A model generated the notes under the pieces. That model worked only from the letters and a program-made list of their open reading frames with translations. It was not told the DNA's origin and made no database searches. 62,140 bases of DNA from positions 1-62,140 of IMG/VR virus record IMGVR_UViG_3300031251_000021; one strand, written 5' to 3'. A program made the position numbers and the translations under genes. Origin of the DNA: a virus. This document shows positions 1 to 62,140 of the stretch, in pieces; position 1 is the first letter of the stretch, and each line of letters begins with the position of its first letter.

Positions 1-127
1 CCGCGACGAGGGCATGAAGTTCATGAACTGGCTTGCCGTCCTGAGCGCCGACAAGGCCACGAGTGACGCGGACCCGTTTCAGCCCAAGTGGATGACGCCC
101 GAGCAGTATGCCAGGAGCGTGCGCCTA
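1..127. repeat. Left copy of 127-bp terminal direct repeat
   Basis: These 127 bases recur exactly at 62014-62140. An exact end overlap of this size is what an assembler leaves when it closes a circle, and 127 is a commonly used k-mer length, so I read it as proof of circularity rather than as a true packaged terminal repeat. It lies inside a protein gene. Confidence 0.9.
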
Positions 128-1062: not shown

Positions 1063-1089
1063 TTGACATAGTAATAATGTTCGTGTAAT
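1063..1089 (+). promoter_or_regulatory. Candidate sigma70-type promoter
   Basis: TTGACA at 1063-1068 matches the -35 consensus. TGTAAT at 1084-1089 is a possible -10, but the 15-base spacer is short. It would drive the rightward early genes from 1115. The 18-bp palindrome variant at 1096-1113 lies just downstream, near the expected transcription start, and also supplies the GGAGGTAA ribosome binding site. Confidence 0.45.
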
Positions 1090-1114
1090 GCCCAGGTTAC
1101 AGTAGGAGGTAATC

Positions 1115-1576
1115 ATGGGCCAGCGGATACACGAAGACGCGACGAACCCCGCCGCCGTCTTCGGACACGAAGTGGGGCTGACTGATCGGGCGTTTGCGCG
1201 TTTTGCGATTATGATGTGCGAGGGTGCGGCGGACGGCTCAATCACGGCAGACGACACGGCGAAGATGCTGGAGGATTTCAATGAGGCGCGGCGCAAGGCT
1301 CGGGGGGATGCACGCAGGAGCGAGCCCCCTTCCAAGGTGCAGGCGAGCAAGCTGCGCTCAGTCATCAAGGCAGGCGAGATGTTTGGCCATCGAGCCGTGA
1401 AACTCTTGGAGCTGACGGCGAAGCTGCATGTGCGGGAGCTGTCGGCGGCGATCTATGAGGGCAAGCTGCGGTATAGTGGGGAGTATAATGCTCTCGTAGA
1501 GGTGGCGCGCTTCGCTGTCGCGCACAACCACATACCCACGCAGAAAGAGATCATCGAGCTTCTGACGTTTGAATAG
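1115..1576 (+). CDS. Hypothetical protein (153 aa)
   Basis: A 153-residue, largely helical, basic protein with no family I recognise. The ATG follows a strong AGGAGGTAATC ribosome binding site formed from a palindrome variant. It is the first gene after the candidate promoter at 1063, so it may be expressed early. The C-terminal half (residues about 80-150) contains two probable helices separated by a short turn; I cannot call it a helix-turn-helix with confidence. Confidence 0.6.
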   Translation: MGQRIHEDATNPAAVFGHEVGLTDRAFARFAIMMCEGAADGSITADDTAKMLEDFNEARRKARGDARRSEPPSKVQASKLRSVIKAGEMFGHRAVKLLELTAKLHVRELSAAIYEGKLRYSGEYNALVEVARFAVAHNHIPTQKEIIELLTFE

Positions 1577-6480: not shown

Positions 6481-6918
6481 GTGCAGTGTCCTAAATGCGG
6501 AGCTGACTCCAAAGTCTACGACAGCAAGCCGGGGCGAGAGCCCTTCACAAGAATACGAGTGCGCGACTGCCCCAACGGGCATATGTTCAAGACGGTGGAG
6601 GGACTTCTGCCGGCGGAGGATGTGCCGCCTCGTGCTACGCAGACGCCGCGGGATGTGACGGATCGGATCATCCGCCTCATTGCGGATGAAGCCGGCATTG
6701 AAGTGGGGGCGATCTTGGGGCGGCAGCGCTCCCCCAAAGTCATCGAGGCGCGGGTGAGGGCGATACGAACCATCGCCGCCGAGTTTCCGGGCTGGAGCTT
6801 CGCGCGCATCGCGAAGATATTCAGCATGGACTATTCGACTGTGGGCTATTGGCTCAAAGATGACGCTTTCCGCACGGCCAAGCGGGCGGCGACGCGGGAG
6901 CGTAACCTAGAAAGGTAA
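6481..6918 (+). CDS. Zinc-ribbon protein with DnaA domain IV-like helix-turn-helix
   Basis: A 145-residue protein from a GTG start. Residues 3-42 hold an NrdR-style zinc ribbon: CPKCGAD, then VYDSKP, an arginine-rich stretch and CPNGH, with three cysteines and one histidine in place of the usual four cysteines. Residues about 95-135 (VIEARVRAIRTIAAEF, FARIAKIFSMDYSTVGYWL) resemble the C-terminal DNA-binding domain of DnaA, where DHSTV is the recognition signature and DYSTV stands here. No ATPase domain lies between. It could be a replication-initiation or transcription factor and is a candidate binder of the genome's repeated palindrome. A second GTG at 6466 is possible, but the ribbon fits a start at 6481. 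Confidence 0.65.
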   Translation: MQCPKCGADSKVYDSKPGREPFTRIRVRDCPNGHMFKTVEGLLPAEDVPPRATQTPRDVTDRIIRLIADEAGIEVGAILGRQRSPKVIEARVRAIRTIAAEFPGWSFARIAKIFSMDYSTVGYWLKDDAFRTAKRAATRERNLER

Positions 6919-53820: not shown

Positions 53821-53846
53821 ACGCCCCGGTTCTTAGGCCGGGGCGT
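53821..53846 (-). terminator. Intrinsic terminator for the outer-membrane-protein transcript
   Basis: ACGCCCCGG (53821-53829) pairs with CCGGGGCGT (53838-53846) over an 8-base loop. On the minus strand it is followed by TTTTCTT. It lies 210 bases after the outer-membrane-protein stop and before the 35-residue gene, so the moron is a self-contained transcription unit. Confidence 0.75.
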
Positions 53847-54055: not shown

Positions 54056-54817
54056 TTAGAAATGGTAGTTCGCACCGATGCGAACGAGAGCGCCATTCAC
54101 GCCTTGAGCGCCCGGAAGCTGGCCGGCTTTCCAGAAGTTCAGGTCCGTGCCCTGGAGGTTGTAGTAGAGCGCTTCCAACTTCACGCCGACCTTCGGAGCG
54201 ATGCTCGGGAGCGGGATCGCCTCGACGCCACCGCCGGCGACCCAGCCAAAGCGCACGTTGCGCGTCGAGGACTCGACTGCTGAGATCACGAGCGGAGCCG
54301 CCTTGGAGACGCTGACGCCGTAGAGCGACGCCTGCTGCGCCAGACCGCCCGCCGCCAGACCGCCGGTGCCGTAGACCAGCACGTTCGTCCAGGGCGACCA
54401 GCCGATGCGGCCACGCGCCGTGCCGAGCCAGCTCAACTGACCAGCCGTCGCGACCGACACGTTCGAGGTCGTCGTCGCGCTCACCGAAGCTCCGACCGGC
54501 TTCGCAATCGAGGACTGCGCGAGCACTCCATCGAGGTCGCCCTCGACGCCGACCAGGAAGTGATCGATCATCAGGTTGTAGCCGGCCTGCGCGCCAGCGG
54601 CGAAGCCCGAAGGCTGCGAGACCCAGCCCGTGTTCAAACCGCCGTAGAAGCCGTTGAACGGGGAGATCGCCGGAGCCGCGGGGACAGCAATCGGGGGGAG
54701 GCGGCTGGGAAGGTCAGCGGCGAAAGCGCTCTTGGTGCTCAGGCCGAGGAAGAACAGCAGCGCTCCGAGAACAATGCCGGCAGCGAGGCTGCGCAGATTG
54801 ACGTTCAGACTATTCAT
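54056..54817 (-). CDS. Outer-membrane beta-barrel protein, Omp25/31-like moron
   Basis: A 253-residue protein with a long Sec signal peptide ending SAFA-ADLPSR, the start of mature Rhizobiales Omp25/31-type proteins. WTGFYGG is here FNGFYGGLNTGWVSQ. The body has alternating beta strands with Gly and aromatic residues, and the last residue is Phe (GANYHF), the signal for outer-membrane insertion. The ribosome binding site AAGGAGACACAC is canonical, unlike most genes here. It has its own promoter and terminator, so it is a moron expressed in the lysogen. It might alter surface receptors and block superinfection; this is inference. Confidence 0.85.
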   Translation of the reverse strand: MNSLNVNLRSLAAGIVLGALLFFLGLSTKSAFAADLPSRLPPIAVPAAPAISPFNGFYGGLNTGWVSQPSGFAAGAQAGYNLMIDHFLVGVEGDLDGVLAQSSIAKPVGASVSATTTSNVSVATAGQLSWLGTARGRIGWSPWTNVLVYGTGGLAAGGLAQQASLYGVSVSKAAPLVISAVESSTRNVRFGWVAGGGVEAIPLPSIAPKVGVKLEALYYNLQGTDLNFWKAGQLPGAQGVNGALVRIGANYHF

Positions 54818-54842
54818 GTGTGTCTCCTTTTCGAGAGTAGGC

Positions 54843-54871
54843 GTTGTAACCTACGTAGGTAACTAGGTCAA
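54843..54871 (-). promoter_or_regulatory. Moron promoter with palindrome operator in the spacer
   Basis: Read on the minus strand: TTGACC (-35, 54871-54866), exactly 17 bases, then TACAAC (-10, 54848-54843). The 18-bp palindrome at 54846-54863 fills most of the spacer and enters the -10. This is the usual geometry of a repressor operator and is the best local evidence that the repeated palindrome is a protein-binding DNA site. Confidence 0.7.
54846..54863. repeat. Copy of the 18-bp palindrome (extended symmetry)
   Basis: GTAACC-TACGTA-GGTAAC. The centre TACGTA is itself palindromic, so symmetry runs over sixteen of the eighteen bases. Confidence 0.85.
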
Positions 54872-55308: not shown

Positions 55309-55605
55309 CTAGTGCCGCACCTGCATGCACGGGGAGACCAGATATGCCATCAGCCCGCCATCCATCGAGACAATCGCGAATGTCGCTTTCTCTTTCGGGA
55401 CCTGGACGCCGTGCATCGTAACCCATCTCTCGACCGCCACCATGTCTCCACTCAACATGAGGATGAACTCCCCTTCGAGGGAGATGTAGTGCGGCCTGCG
55501 GGTGATGTCCCCAAAGTCGTGCGCTCGATATATCCGCTCCGCGGCTTCGGGGGACACCTCGAAGTCGTCTTCGGTCTCTTCGCTCAAAACGGCGGGGTCG
55601 CCCAT
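55309..55605 (-). CDS. Hypothetical protein (98 aa)
   Basis: A 98-residue acidic protein starting MGDPAVLSEETEDDFEV with a beta-rich C-terminal half (ISLEGEFILMLSGDMVAVERW). The start overlaps the excisionase stop by one base. It sits between the excisionase and the Acb2-like gene, a place where phages often keep anti-defence genes, but there is no family evidence. Confidence 0.55.
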   Translation of the reverse strand: MGDPAVLSEETEDDFEVSPEAAERIYRAHDFGDITRRPHYISLEGEFILMLSGDMVAVERWVTMHGVQVPKEKATFAIVSMDGGLMAYLVSPCMQVRH

Positions 55606-55901
55606 CACGCGTCTCCCAACGTCTTCGACTCGCGCCTATCGAGCATCCAAATATGCACGTCGGCCATGAGGTAATAGGTGAGGCGTCCGACGCGGATGAA
55701 CTGCGGCCCCTCGCCGGTCTTGCGCCAATCGCGCAGTGTCCGCTCCGCGACTTCAAGCATCAGCGACAACTCTAGCTCGCTAATGACGCCGAGCACTTCG
55801 CGTAGCATCCGTCCTCTGTTTCGCCCGAACGTATTCACCGGCTCACTGCCCGCCGCATCAGTCACCGCTGCCTCCCTATCGTCGAGCTGAAGCATACACA
55901 T
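55605..55901 (-). CDS. Excisionase / MerR-type helix-turn-helix protein
   Basis: A 98-residue protein whose second half (ELSLMLEVAERTLRDWRKTGEGPQFIRVGRLTYYLMADVHIWML) is the AlpA/excisionase-type winged helix-turn-helix. Directly downstream of the integrase it is the natural Xis, directing excision by bending the attachment DNA. The N-terminal 40 residues look disordered. Confidence 0.75.
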   Translation of the reverse strand: MCMLQLDDREAAVTDAAGSEPVNTFGRNRGRMLREVLGVISELELSLMLEVAERTLRDWRKTGEGPQFIRVGRLTYYLMADVHIWMLDRRESKTLGDA

Positions 55902-55912
55902 CCAAAGTTACC

Positions 55913-55954
55913 TTGCAAGTTATTTATATGTTACGTAAGGACAATAACTTGCAA
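55913..55954. repeat. Perfect 12-bp inverted repeat at the integrase-excisionase junction
   Basis: TTGCAAGTTATT (55913-55924) and its exact reverse complement (55943-55954) flank 18 bases. It covers the last integrase codons and adjoins a degenerate 18-bp palindrome at 55907. It may be an operator or a hairpin that limits int-xis read-through; there is no T-tract. Confidence 0.55.
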
Positions 55955-57255
55955 TAATATCGTGCGAGCAACTCCATCGCATCACGATGTTCTTTCTGGT
56001 AGCGAGACTTGTTGTAGACACTGGCGATCCGGCTGTGCGCCGTCGTGTGTCCGAGCACAACTTCAACGATGTGAGGCGCAACCCCACTCCGCCCCAATAT
56101 CGTCGCCGCGGTCCGGCGCAAGTCATGGCGATGCCAGCCGGCAGTGTCAGTGCGCTCGAAGAGTTTCTTCTGGTATCGGTCCCAATTCCCGTTACGCCCC
56201 GCGAGCCTCCCATCCCACAACCTAACACCCTGACACGCTCTCCCCTCTGTGTGCTCGCGCACATCCTGCTCCCGAACCAAACCTAACACCCTAACAGCCT
56301 CGGAACTGAGCGGGACCACATGCGCTCGCTTCTGCTTCGTGCGCTCTCTCGGGATCGTCCATAGCGCGGCCTCCCCACCCTCTCCGTGTGCGCCACCCAG
56401 CGCGAACTCATCCCACCTCGCGCCGCATATCTCTTCTCGCCGGCACGCCGTCAGCAGCATGATGCGCACAGCCGCATCGTGACCTGCGTGGGTAAGTTCC
56501 GTCAGCACTGCTCGCAGCTCGTCGTCGGACAGCACGCGCTCCCGCACGACGTTCGATCTCTTGGGCTGCTCCAGATCACGCGCGTCGAGCGACAAGTATC
56601 CGCGCTTCCTCCCCCACCTCAGAACCGGGCGAACGTATCGGACGCAAGCCGCGGCAGAGGATCGCGATGGGTGTGCATCGATGGTGCGCTGCAAAGTGGG
56701 CAGCGTCAGTCGGGCGAGTGGCGTGGCTAGGAGGGCTGCGAGCACATGGCGGATTCGCTTGTCAGCGTCATACCATGAAGGTTGTAACGATCCATTCGTG
56801 CTACCATAGGTTGCAACTAATTCAGACAGGGTTAGGGGGCTCCCTGATGAGCTGTCGCTCGGAGAGCTACTAGGGTAGCTCTTAGCTTCATCTCGCTTGT
56901 GGGCGGCTAGTCTCCGCGCCACGGCAAGGGTGATTTGGGGGTAGGGGCCGATTTCATAGCGTCGCCGGGGCTGGCCGGGCGCGGTGCGAACTTGCAAGGT
57001 CCAGAGGGTAGAGGTCGGACCTGCGCGCAGAACGAGACCTGGACAAGCTCCATCCCGGAGTTCGAGGCGCTGGGCCGGCAGTCGAGTGCGGATGGCGGCG
57101 TTGATTTCGGCAATGGTGAGCGGCGGCAGTGTCTTGGGCAATGGGGTCGGACCGGCTGGGGGCCAAAATCGGGGGTGCTGGGGGCCAAAGCGTCGTGGCG
57201 GCTCGTGGTAGGGAGGCGGCGGGCGATTGTCAAGAGGGCGACTAAAATAACACAT
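55924..57255 (-). CDS. int: Tyrosine integrase
   Basis: A 443-residue tyrosine recombinase. An N-terminal arm-binding region of the DUF4102 type (LTIAEINAAIR...LELRDGACPGLVLR) is followed by a core-binding domain and the catalytic domain with ACRREE, HRHDLRRTAATILG, LGHTT and the nucleophile Tyr in SVYNKSRY. A longer ORF reaches 57351, but its extra N-terminus is translated through the tRNA-like attachment site and looks spurious, so I chose the ATG at 57255. It inserts the phage into a host tRNA gene. Confidence 0.85.
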   Translation of the reverse strand: MCYFSRPLDNRPPPPYHEPPRRFGPQHPRFWPPAGPTPLPKTLPPLTIAEINAAIRTRLPAQRLELRDGACPGLVLRAGPTSTLWTLQVRTAPGQPRRRYEIGPYPQITLAVARRLAAHKRDEAKSYPSSSPSDSSSGSPLTLSELVATYGSTNGSLQPSWYDADKRIRHVLAALLATPLARLTLPTLQRTIDAHPSRSSAAACVRYVRPVLRWGRKRGYLSLDARDLEQPKRSNVVRERVLSDDELRAVLTELTHAGHDAAVRIMLLTACRREEICGARWDEFALGGAHGEGGEAALWTIPRERTKQKRAHVVPLSSEAVRVLGLVREQDVREHTEGRACQGVRLWDGRLAGRNGNWDRYQKKLFERTDTAGWHRHDLRRTAATILGRSGVAPHIVEVVLGHTTAHSRIASVYNKSRYQKEHRDAMELLARYYCKLLSLRNI

Positions 57256-57317
57256 TACAGTAGGGTTGCAATTGGGTAACGGTTGGTCTCTGGGGGCTGG
57301 GATTTTTCGGACGATAA

Positions 57318-57358
57318 CTTCTAAGCAGTAGGTCGTGGGTTCGAGCCCCACCGGAGTC
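57318..57358 (+). other. attP: attP core: 3' half of tRNA-Arg(UCU)
   Basis: From the anticodon loop onward the sequence is tRNA: CTTCTAA (anticodon TCT), GCAGT, AGGTC, T-stem GTGGG, loop TTCGAGC, CCCAC, then CGGAGTC as the acceptor strand. Bases upstream of the loop do not pair with GCAGT, so the phage carries only the 3' half and identity probably begins at the anticodon loop, as in many tRNA-integrating phages. It lies 63 bases from the integrase ATG. Confidence 0.8.
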
Positions 57359-58906: not shown

Positions 58907-59374
58907 ATGAAACAGATACTACTTCGCGTAGAGGACGATGAATATGCCGCCGTCAAAGCGTCGGCGGACCAGAACGGGCGAAGCCTCAACCGCGAGCTTC
59001 GCCATATGATCCGCACGGCTCTTGCTGCGCCGGGCGAAGCCCCGCTACCAGGGGCGAAGCTCTTCACCCTTGCCGAGCGCACCCGCTCCTATGGAAGCGC
59101 CAAAGAGGACGCGAAGCAAAAGCGATGGCAGCAAATGGCCATTGAGCAGGGTGAGAGGGAAGGCTTGCGCGTCACATTCGACGAGCGCGGCTTTGAGCAA
59201 GTAGCCAAGCTCTATACCTTGAACGGTAACAAGGTCACGCTCGCAGAGGCACAAGCCTATGCCGAGAGCAACGGCTTCTGGGTAGAGATGAACGGCGACG
59301 TGCCGCACATAGACCCCGAAGGGGAGATCATGCTTGGCTGCGCGCCAGACGAAGACGAAGGCGAACCTACCTAG
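58907..59374 (+). CDS. Arc-like ribbon-helix-helix DNA-binding protein
   Basis: A 155-residue protein. Residues 1-39 (MKQILLRVEDDEYAAVKASA, then DQNGRSLNRELRHMIRTAL) match the Arc/MetJ ribbon-helix-helix fold: strand, then NGRSLNREL as in Arc. Such proteins bind palindromic DNA as dimers or tetramers. The C-terminal 110 residues are unrelated and end in a very acidic tail. The upstream region has GCTAGC inverted repeats and a palindrome copy, so it may bind one or both. I chose the ATG at 58907; an earlier in-frame start at 58862 would run through the inverted repeat. Confidence 0.75.
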   Translation: MKQILLRVEDDEYAAVKASADQNGRSLNRELRHMIRTALAAPGEAPLPGAKLFTLAERTRSYGSAKEDAKQKRWQQMAIEQGEREGLRVTFDERGFEQVAKLYTLNGNKVTLAEAQAYAESNGFWVEMNGDVPHIDPEGEIMLGCAPDEDEGEPT

Positions 59375-60189: not shown

Positions 60190-60222
60190 TACCTAGCCGG
60201 GACGGTGTTACCGTGCTAGGTA
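60190..60222. promoter_or_regulatory. Composite hairpin built from palindrome half-sites
   Basis: TACCTAGC (60190-60197) pairs with GCTAGGTA (60215-60222); inside, ACGGT (60202-60206) pairs with ACCGT (60210-60214) over GTT, with CGGG bulged. A normal palindrome copy (60207-60224) overlaps its right half. It lies about 45 bases before the ATG at 60269 and could be a double operator or an RNA hairpin. Confidence 0.5.
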
Positions 60223-60268
60223 TCGTTTCGCAACACCAATCCAACCCACAACCACAGGAGAGAACCAC

Positions 60269-61381
60269 ATGGCTCGCAAGGCTAAGAAGATGATTGTGTC
60301 CGACGAGATCGTGACTGAGGCTCTGGCTGCCGAAGCCCCGGAGTTTGTCCTTGCCGACGGAACAGGCGAAGAGGGCGAGACGCTGAACGGCGTTGAAGCC
60401 GCGCACACCATTGAACTCGCGCCGGACGAAGCGACGGAGAACCTGAGCGACGAAGAGTTGCTGGCGCAGCTCGCCGCCGAGACCGTGTCCCACACGGATG
60501 TGTTCCCCGACCCCGTCGTTCTGCCGGAGCAGGAGGAACCTGCGCAGGTAACACCTGCCATCGCTGCCCAGGCGAAGCAGATCGAGGAGGAGGACAGCGC
60601 GCTCATTGCGAAGTCTGGGGACAACGCCTTGATCGCGGCGCGCAAGAAGTTCTTGCAGCGCGTCGCCAAGCTCGGCGAGGACGCTGGAGCTGGCGTGCAG
60701 TCGCTTCCCACACTCGCTCGCGAAGCCGTGCGCGCCGCGGCGGACAGGCTCTTTGGGTCGGACGAAGCCGAGGACCTGTATGTGCGCTTCCAGAAGCGGC
60801 GTCATGCGCGCATGGGGAAAATCTACGAGAAAGAGGACAGCATCAAGAACCAAGTCTCGAAGCTGCGCCAGATCATGCTCGTGGGCGCGGCGTTCGGCGA
60901 GGAAGGCGTGGACATGATCGAGCTTGCCTACGAGCTTCGCATCGCTGCCGCCGCCCAGCCCGAGACGGCTAAAGCCATGAAGCCCGGCACGACCTATGCG
61001 TTCCTCGTGGACGTGGCGCGCGAGCAGCTTGACGACAAGAACAAGGGGATCGTGCTGGACCAGGGCGGGATCGAGCGCGTCATGTTCCCGGAGAAGAAGG
61101 AGAAGACGCTCGCCGATGAAGCCAAGCGCCTCTATGAGGGAGCCGTCAAGCTCAAGAAGGGGAAGAAGGCGACGGGCGATAAGGACGCCGTGCCGGGCGT
61201 GGACAGCGCCTCACTCGAAGCCGCCATCGACTACCTTCAAGAGACTTGGTTCGAGCTGGACCCGGAGGCCCGCGCCGCCTGGCAGGCTGCCGAGCAGGCC
61301 CGTCGCGACAAGATCGCGAAGGAGCAGGCTGCGCTCGCCGCGTTCAAGAGCCGCCCGCTGCACATTAACCTGGGCCGGTAA
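60269..61381 (+). CDS. Hypothetical acidic-to-basic helical protein (370 aa)
   Basis: A 370-residue protein. The first 100 residues are acidic and probably disordered (LAAEAPEFVLADGTGEEGE...), the rest is helical with a lysine-rich part near residues 280-310. The ribosome binding site ACAGGAGAG is canonical. A palindrome copy at 60535 lies inside. The large size and position at the head of an early rightward stretch suggest an abundant early product; no family recognised. Confidence 0.6.
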   Translation: MARKAKKMIVSDEIVTEALAAEAPEFVLADGTGEEGETLNGVEAAHTIELAPDEATENLSDEELLAQLAAETVSHTDVFPDPVVLPEQEEPAQVTPAIAAQAKQIEEEDSALIAKSGDNALIAARKKFLQRVAKLGEDAGAGVQSLPTLAREAVRAAADRLFGSDEAEDLYVRFQKRRHARMGKIYEKEDSIKNQVSKLRQIMLVGAAFGEEGVDMIELAYELRIAAAAQPETAKAMKPGTTYAFLVDVAREQLDDKNKGIVLDQGGIERVMFPEKKEKTLADEAKRLYEGAVKLKKGKKATGDKDAVPGVDSASLEAAIDYLQETWFELDPEARAAWQAAEQARRDKIAKEQAALAAFKSRPLHINLGR

Positions 61382-61447
61382 CCTGCGCAGGTAACACGCT
61401 GACACGCTGCGCCCTACGGGGCGCGGCTCACATCCTTGGAGGGACAC

Positions 61448-61987: not shown

Positions 61988-62140
61988 ATGACACCGGAGC
62001 CCGACGAGCCCCGCCGCGACGAGGGCATGAAGTTCATGAACTGGCTTGCCGTCCTGAGCGCCGACAAGGCCACGAGTGACGCGGACCCGTTTCAGCCCAA
62101 GTGGATGACGCCCGAGCAGTATGCCAGGAGCGTGCGCCTA
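61988..62140 (+). CDS. Hypothetical protein, N-terminal part (continues at window start)
   Basis: The first 51 codons of the 69-residue protein whose end lies at 2-184. The ATG follows GGGGGTAACACC from the palindrome at 61967. Function unknown. Confidence 0.75.
   Translation, partial: MTPEPDEPRRDEGMKFMNWLAVLSADKATSDADPFQPKWMTPEQYARSVRL
62014..62140. repeat. Right copy of 127-bp terminal direct repeat
   Basis: Identical to bases 1-127. One copy should be removed to obtain the 62,013-bp circle. Confidence 0.9.

Follow-up and report, generated by a model that had tools for sequence, protein, structure and literature searches.

Upstream of a gene for an outer-membrane protein, a palindrome lies inside a pair of promoter-like hexamers, which raises the question of whether it is the operator of that gene or one copy of something wider. 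The window, by which we mean the whole stretch of DNA that was analysed (62,140 nucleotides), is a 62-kb tailed-phage record with portal, capsid, terminase, polymerase, and helicase genes. The features around the palindrome are the following:

54846-54863, minus strand: 18-bp dyad, plus-strand sequence GTAACCTACGTAGGTAAC, a copy of the genome-wide GTTACC-N6-GGTAAC element.
54866-54871, minus strand: -35-like hexamer TTGACC, matching TTGACA at 5 of 6 positions, at chance level genome-wide.
54843-54848, minus strand: -10-like hexamer TACAAC, matching TATAAT at 4 of 6 positions, no T at -7, 3 bases overlapped by the dyad.
54056-54817, minus strand: gene for a 253-aa host-like outer-membrane protein with Bradyrhizobium-family relatives, a probable moron.
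53821-53846, minus strand: terminator-like hairpin behind the outer-membrane-protein gene, 9-bp stem, 8 GC, T-rich tail.
55924-57351, minus strand: tyrosine integrase, pointing to a temperate lifestyle (PF00589 3.9e-15; phrog_1 5e-37).

An HTH_17 excisionase-like gene (55605-55901) adjoins the integrase. Identical ends of 127 bp are present in the window (1-127 and 62014-62140) and in the related phage G013, and ends of 206 bp in G005, as in circular or terminally redundant assemblies.

The first-pass annotation had described a textbook promoter whose spacer and -10 are filled by a palindrome with a symmetric centre, acting as an operator. The geometry is as it claimed: on the minus strand, TTGACC (54871-54866) is followed by 17 bases and TACAAC (54848-54843), and the dyad covers 15 of the 17 spacer bases and 3 bases of the -10. 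The ATG of the gene lies 25 bases past the -10 and is preceded by GGAG. As a promoter, the pair is weak rather than textbook; its hexamers match at 9 of 12 positions, and a consensus scan omits it because the scan rule wants the missing T at -7. With a promoter matrix, 78 positions of the genome score equally well or better versus about 51 expected, and for this intergenic strand alone the chance of such a pair is roughly 2-3%. Promoter-like spacers overlap 7% of the 40 non-coding dyads of the window versus 6% of control positions. When dyads were compared with promoter scores in eight genomes, the median was higher in two (the window and G008), and strong scores were enriched only in G008. 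The symmetric centre does not hold up either, as 4 of the 73 dyads of the window are symmetric in their inner four bases versus 4.6 expected, these four bases carry near zero information, and the palindrome at 54846-54863 is itself imperfect, pairing at 8 of 9 positions. It nevertheless ranks second of the 73 by position weight matrix, with no equal copy in any of 10 shuffled genomes. One part of the operator claim stands: the reading of the palindrome as a protein-binding operator has good support in its genome-wide occurrence, its independently varying half-sites, and its co-occurrence with one protein family, all discussed below. The other part, that this copy is the operator of a promoter, is plausible but does no better than chance.

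Calling the gene a moron was reasonable. Relatives of the protein, which has no Pfam match, were found in 56 of 61 Bradyrhizobium-family genomes and neither in the related phages compared nor among phage records; together with the terminator-like hairpin of its own, this distribution makes acquisition from a host a reasonable reading. If the proposed promoter is used, the expected transcription start is near 54836, with RNA polymerase contacts falling on the dyad, a layout that favors repression; the choice between repression and activation at this dyad is beyond what the sequence can tell. Repression had seemed strange for a moron expressed in lysogens, an apparent paradox that is gone if the candidate binder introduced below, fam68, does not act as a repressor in lysogeny alone or if the promoter lies elsewhere. 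The binder may activate at 54846-54863, or the promoter may be elsewhere and the dyad a road-block or a neutral copy. We consider this possible, somewhat short of probable, and not exclusive of any reading of the array as a whole. It would accommodate a -10/-35 pair at chance level genome-wide and a dyad that precedes the ATG by 37 nt, a spacing also found for other copies. It sits less well with the second-best site of the genome falling in the spacer of a local promoter candidate and with an isolated gene that has its own terminator-like hairpin.

The palindrome belongs to a large family. GTTACC-N6-GGTAAC occurs at 73 sites with at most two mismatches in the 62-kb phage, where 0.3 are expected, and 82 matrix matches of 8 bits or more were found in the window versus 1.8 expected. 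The median distance between the 73 copies is 754 bp, and 29 of them (~40%) lie wholly within genes, in both transcription blocks. Nineteen of the 73 lie 5-30 nt upstream of start codons versus 2.2 expected (9-fold), and the same interval holds 17 versus 0.9 in phage G006, counts that are approximate near starts because the genes were called with a simple in-house finder. The site at the outer-membrane-protein gene had been regarded as the single link between the repeat and transcription control; stronger links had been overlooked, namely the enrichment at ribosome-binding sites and gene starts and the sites upstream of the candidate binder gene. Many start-associated copies read TAACCTAGAAAGGTAACACCATG, and their 3' arm doubles as a Shine-Dalgarno sequence; a search of viral contigs for the exact start-associated 21-mer gave no match. 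Positions 2-6 of the half-site hold 1.2-1.9 bits over the 73 copies, and the centre is almost random. In eight genomes, half-site pairs with both halves changed numbered 11 versus 10.9 expected; both halves are conserved and vary independently, in a test weakened by the use of sites picked by consensus similarity. Independent change of this kind fits recognition of DNA half-sites better than an RNA hairpin. A reading-frame bias of intragenic dyads was dropped from the analysis, as certain frames are closed to the dyad by the stop codons it contains. We also noted an ORF at 631-978 of the window in which a 12-bp tandem repeat gives rise to glycine/aspartate/tyrosine repeats (GDGYGDGYG); a dyad lies at the end of this ORF.

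Related phages were collected by a portal protein search, and dyads were then counted without bias. Each lineage has its own spelling. Rhizobium phage RHph_TM27A and the Bradyrhizobium genomes G021 and G019 carry GTTACC-N6 or N5 dyads; G004, G005, and G009 carry TTACCG-N3/N2; G006 and G007 carry TGTTCC-N2/N1; and G008 carries TGATCC-N2. On the same counting, G002, G003, G012, and G013 have no comparable array. We discounted ACCGGT-N3 "dyads" in G002, G003, and G009 and CGACGA in G013 as repeats of low complexity or of a collagen-like kind, a reading that is partly presumed for G002, which retains a CCGG-N5 excess after masking. The scan also recovered the published array of 17-bp Cluster O dyads in Firecracker (25 perfect copies in 31 kb), so the counting method works.

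The dyads are confined to phage DNA. All 9 perfect TTACC-N6-GGTAA sites of the 7.9-Mb Bradyrhizobium sp. 139 genome are on two prophage contigs (one of which, C111, is equated with JADPKS010000067 from position only), and five of the six perfect sites of G021 (8.7 Mb) are in its phage contig. In Bradyrhizobium sp. 139 the phage is integrated: its early genes are followed by a 559-aa recombinase-like protein, identified by reading its sequence, and then by chromosomal genes. The gene at which this prophage ends (G019 C166:23486-25165, L126) is serine-recombinase-like; tyrosine integrases are found instead in the window, G006, and G008. We found no description of such dyad arrays in rhizobial phages in the open-access literature, subscription papers being mostly outside the scope of the search.

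The ortholog groups of all genomes were ranked, unsupervised, by their co-presence with dyads. One group, fam68, is the sole one found in all 8 complete dyad phages and in none of the 4 dyad-free phages, in a comparison of about 12 genomes from one phage group in which two of the dyad-free phages, G012 and G013, belong to the most distant members. The core-gene tree places G003, which lacks dyads, as sister to G004, G005, and G009, which have them (100% support), so dyads and fam68 switched together within one clade. The elements of this family in the window are:

60269-61381, plus strand: candidate binder fam68, 370 aa, helical core, the ortholog group that matches dyad presence and absence.
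60207-60224, plus strand: dyad whose centre lies 53 nt before the ATG of the candidate binder gene, a possible autoregulatory site.
61365-61395, plus strand: pair of dyads that overlap each other, at the 3' end of the fam68 gene.
1115-1576, plus strand: short fam68 paralog, 153 aa, identified by profile matches.
1096-1113, plus strand: dyad over the ribosome-binding site of the paralog, upstream of 1115-1576.
1063-1089, plus strand: TTGACA-15-TGTAAT, the best sigma70-like promoter score in the window, upstream of the paralog; a consensus match only.

In a partial test of prediction, five new loci were found by fam68 alone, and three of the five have a dyad array of the type expected from their fam68 helix (see below): 19 TTACCG-N3 dyads in one (control 0) and 9 perfect TTACC-N6 dyads in each of the other two. 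A fourth, L129, is a weak case that carries fam68 and 1 perfect dyad in 15.5 kb, and the fifth, L130, is too short for its dyads to be judged. A search of 392 Bradyrhizobium-family genomes was positive only for G019, and searches of plasmids gave no match. In 7 of 8 genomes, the fam68 start has a dyad within the 60 nt before it, the exception being G005 with none near the start, and dyads upstream of fam68 were also found in G019, L134, L135, and G009. Against a background of many starts with a nearby dyad, this is supportive, not decisive. Taken from these patterns of occurrence, the product of 60269-61381 is the prime suspect for the dyad binder. The clustering may have overlooked a helix-turn-helix protein that is small and evolves fast. 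The window does encode other potential DNA binders: a small protein at 6583-6918 with a DnaA C-terminal-type helix-turn-helix (PF08299 4.5e-7, phrog_27829) is possibly an origin-binding protein and a rival binder, though no relative turned up in the other phages, and an Arc/FitA-like ribbon-helix-helix protein at 58907-59374, with a dyad just upstream, also has no relative in the other phages compared.

The fam68 proteins resemble no recognised DNA-binding family. AlphaFold models of the window and Bradyrhizobium members are helical, with a core pLDDT of about 90 or more. No significant Pfam, PHROGs, or NCBIfam family and no recognised DNA-binding or helix-turn-helix domain was found, nor any fold match in the PDB, where sequence searches were also without a usable match. 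A PHROG match to a tape-measure family (9.5e-4) and a match to a designed helical protein (3.7e-05) were both dismissed as composition. A viral structure library returned two strong matches, both unnamed or uncharacterised, which from their length and identity are probably fam68 members themselves. One helix of the family holds a near-invariant arginine, and the residues around it vary with the dyad type. This candidate contact helix reads SKLRQ or SKLKQ with GTTACC, ST(V/L)R and similar with TTACCG, VATLR with TGTTCC, and VSKLRT with TGATCC. Between the window, TM27A-like, and Bradyrhizobium groups, the GTTACC-type proteins have only ~25-41% identity and share helix and site, whereas those of G006 and G008 share 53% of their residues, yet differ in both. 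Since helix and site types largely follow clades, their match is not independent evidence, and the correspondence, confounded with phylogeny, is suggestive only.

These data are best read as a stoperator-like system of dispersed operators for which a new candidate binder has emerged. In its specific form, we consider it about evenly balanced between right and wrong that the approximately 70 dispersed sites are an operator network whose binder is phage-encoded, probably dimeric, and most likely the product of 60269-61381, and through which transcription would be blocked along the phage genome. A fam68 dimer would sit on dyads within genes as well as at their starts and in the short gaps between them, and this occupancy would block transcription along the genome, serving to silence the prophage or to time expression. 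The protein would also control its own expression. Bound upstream of the outer-membrane-protein gene, it would hide the putative -10 and the spacer and either repress that gene or put it under the common switch. The dyad family, its restriction to phage DNA, the spelling specific to each lineage, and the joint inheritance with fam68 are directly observed. DNA binding by fam68, its dimerisation, road-block repression, and any role at the outer-membrane-protein promoter are what we infer from the sequences. No integrase was detected in the TTACCG phages or in TM27A, so a role in lysogeny would not be general, and we are warned against labelling fam68 outright as an immunity repressor. TM27A, negative for both integrase families searched, does contain a gene annotated "putative integrase" (EVB29_077, L106 42248-45331); by position and size, its product is apparently a relative (35% identity) of the DUF927 protein of the window.

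The chief rival to an operator network is the organisation of phage DNA. The dyads would then be genome-organising or compaction sites, as in a phage nucleoid or a partition-like system, bound by fam68 or another protein, and regulation of single genes would be secondary. The ~40% of dyads that are intragenic, in both transcription blocks, and the majority that are away from promoters are in line with such a role, as are the TTACCG phages, which keep their dyads without a detected integrase, and the Cluster O phages, apparently not temperate, which have similar arrays (PMC4351075). However, enrichment 5-30 nt upstream of starts, in both the window (19 vs 2.2) and G006 (17 vs 0.9), is a regulatory pattern, no ParB-type match was found among the window proteins checked, and the dyads are kept in a chromosomally integrated prophage, where partition is unneeded. 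On balance, we regard DNA organisation as an unlikely primary function.

A further alternative is that the element acts in RNA, the start-associated copies sequestering the ribosome-binding site in a hairpin for translational control, comparable to the start-associated sequences of Cluster K. In the GTTACC phages, the 3' arm of the dyad does provide the Shine-Dalgarno sequence at a near-constant distance from the ATG, and in the window this downstream arm carries fewer mismatches than the other (32 versus 48). Nevertheless, the TGTTCC, TGATCC, and TTACCG sites precede starts and supply no Shine-Dalgarno sequence, many dyads are mid-gene, and transcription from the proposed promoter would leave out the copy at the outer-membrane-protein gene. 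The half-sites show no compensatory change, a point weakened by the consensus-based choice of sites. Control through RNA thus seems improbable. Short repeats do spread in some phages, but functionless drift of a mobile or low-complexity repeat is scarcely credible given a half-site spelling conserved around a near-random centre and a different dyad maintained in each lineage.

Among known systems, the operator network has its nearest match in architecture in the mycobacteriophages of Cluster O, whose 17-bp dyads (TGTTCGG-N3-CCGAACA in Corndog) occur in more than 30 dispersed perfect copies, both intergenic and, for about one third, in genes; they are predicted dimer sites, mostly off promoters and not tied to start codons, with binder and function unknown (PMC4351075). 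Both arrays consist of more than 30 dispersed, dyad-symmetric, partly intragenic repeats (here 73, with 29 fully coding). The phages are unrelated and the sequences differ, although TGTTCC-N2 of G006/G007 is similar, not identical, to the Cluster O site. Moreover, the dyads of the window are strongly linked to starts, and fam68 is absent from the 31 kb of Firecracker tested. By proposed mechanism, the stoperators of Cluster A are nearest. In L5 and Bxb1, these are 20-30 genome-wide sites at promoters and in short intergenic gaps, 13-mers that are asymmetric, point in the direction of transcription, and bind a helix-turn-helix monomer (PMC6550527, PMC9283540). Many dispersed copies, a site upstream of the (candidate) repressor gene, and a lineage consensus that tracks the binder are common to both, the last seen here as four dyad types with four helix types, confounded with phylogeny. 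The defining features of stoperators are not found here: the sites are palindromic with both halves conserved and spacers of 1 to 6 bases, and fam68 has neither a helix-turn-helix family nor a PDB fold match. With the start-associated sequences of Cluster K, asymmetric 13-mers nearly confined to starts (PMC3203893), the dyads share only their position directly upstream of start codons; they differ in being palindromic, on both strands, and also mid-gene. As for ParB/parS systems, fam68 has no ParB match. Phage phiC31 has multiple conserved inverted-repeat operators for one phage repressor, some of them at promoters; the sites are fewer than in the window, and the protein is unrelated.

More tentatively, and with slightly less than even confidence, we propose that fam68 is a new sequence-specific DNA-binding family, with a fold unlike known ones, through which alphaproteobacterial phages operate a genome-wide dispersed-operator switch. 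Along with the protein, the spelling of the operator and its spacer would have split into four or more forms with immunity-type specificities, and the switch would capture host-derived cargo such as the outer-membrane protein. If this is true, it would be a second, apparently unrelated route to stoperator-like control and would provide ready operator/binder pairs from Rhizobium and Bradyrhizobium phages. When the Cluster O dyads were described in 2015, neither their binder nor their function was known; in the present data, one candidate family and four operator types open the questions of the dyad binder and of genome silencing to direct laboratory test. A possible fifth operator spelling was seen in L007, an 11.9-kb relative in which the commonest dyad is TTACT-N6-AGTAA, with 3 copies.
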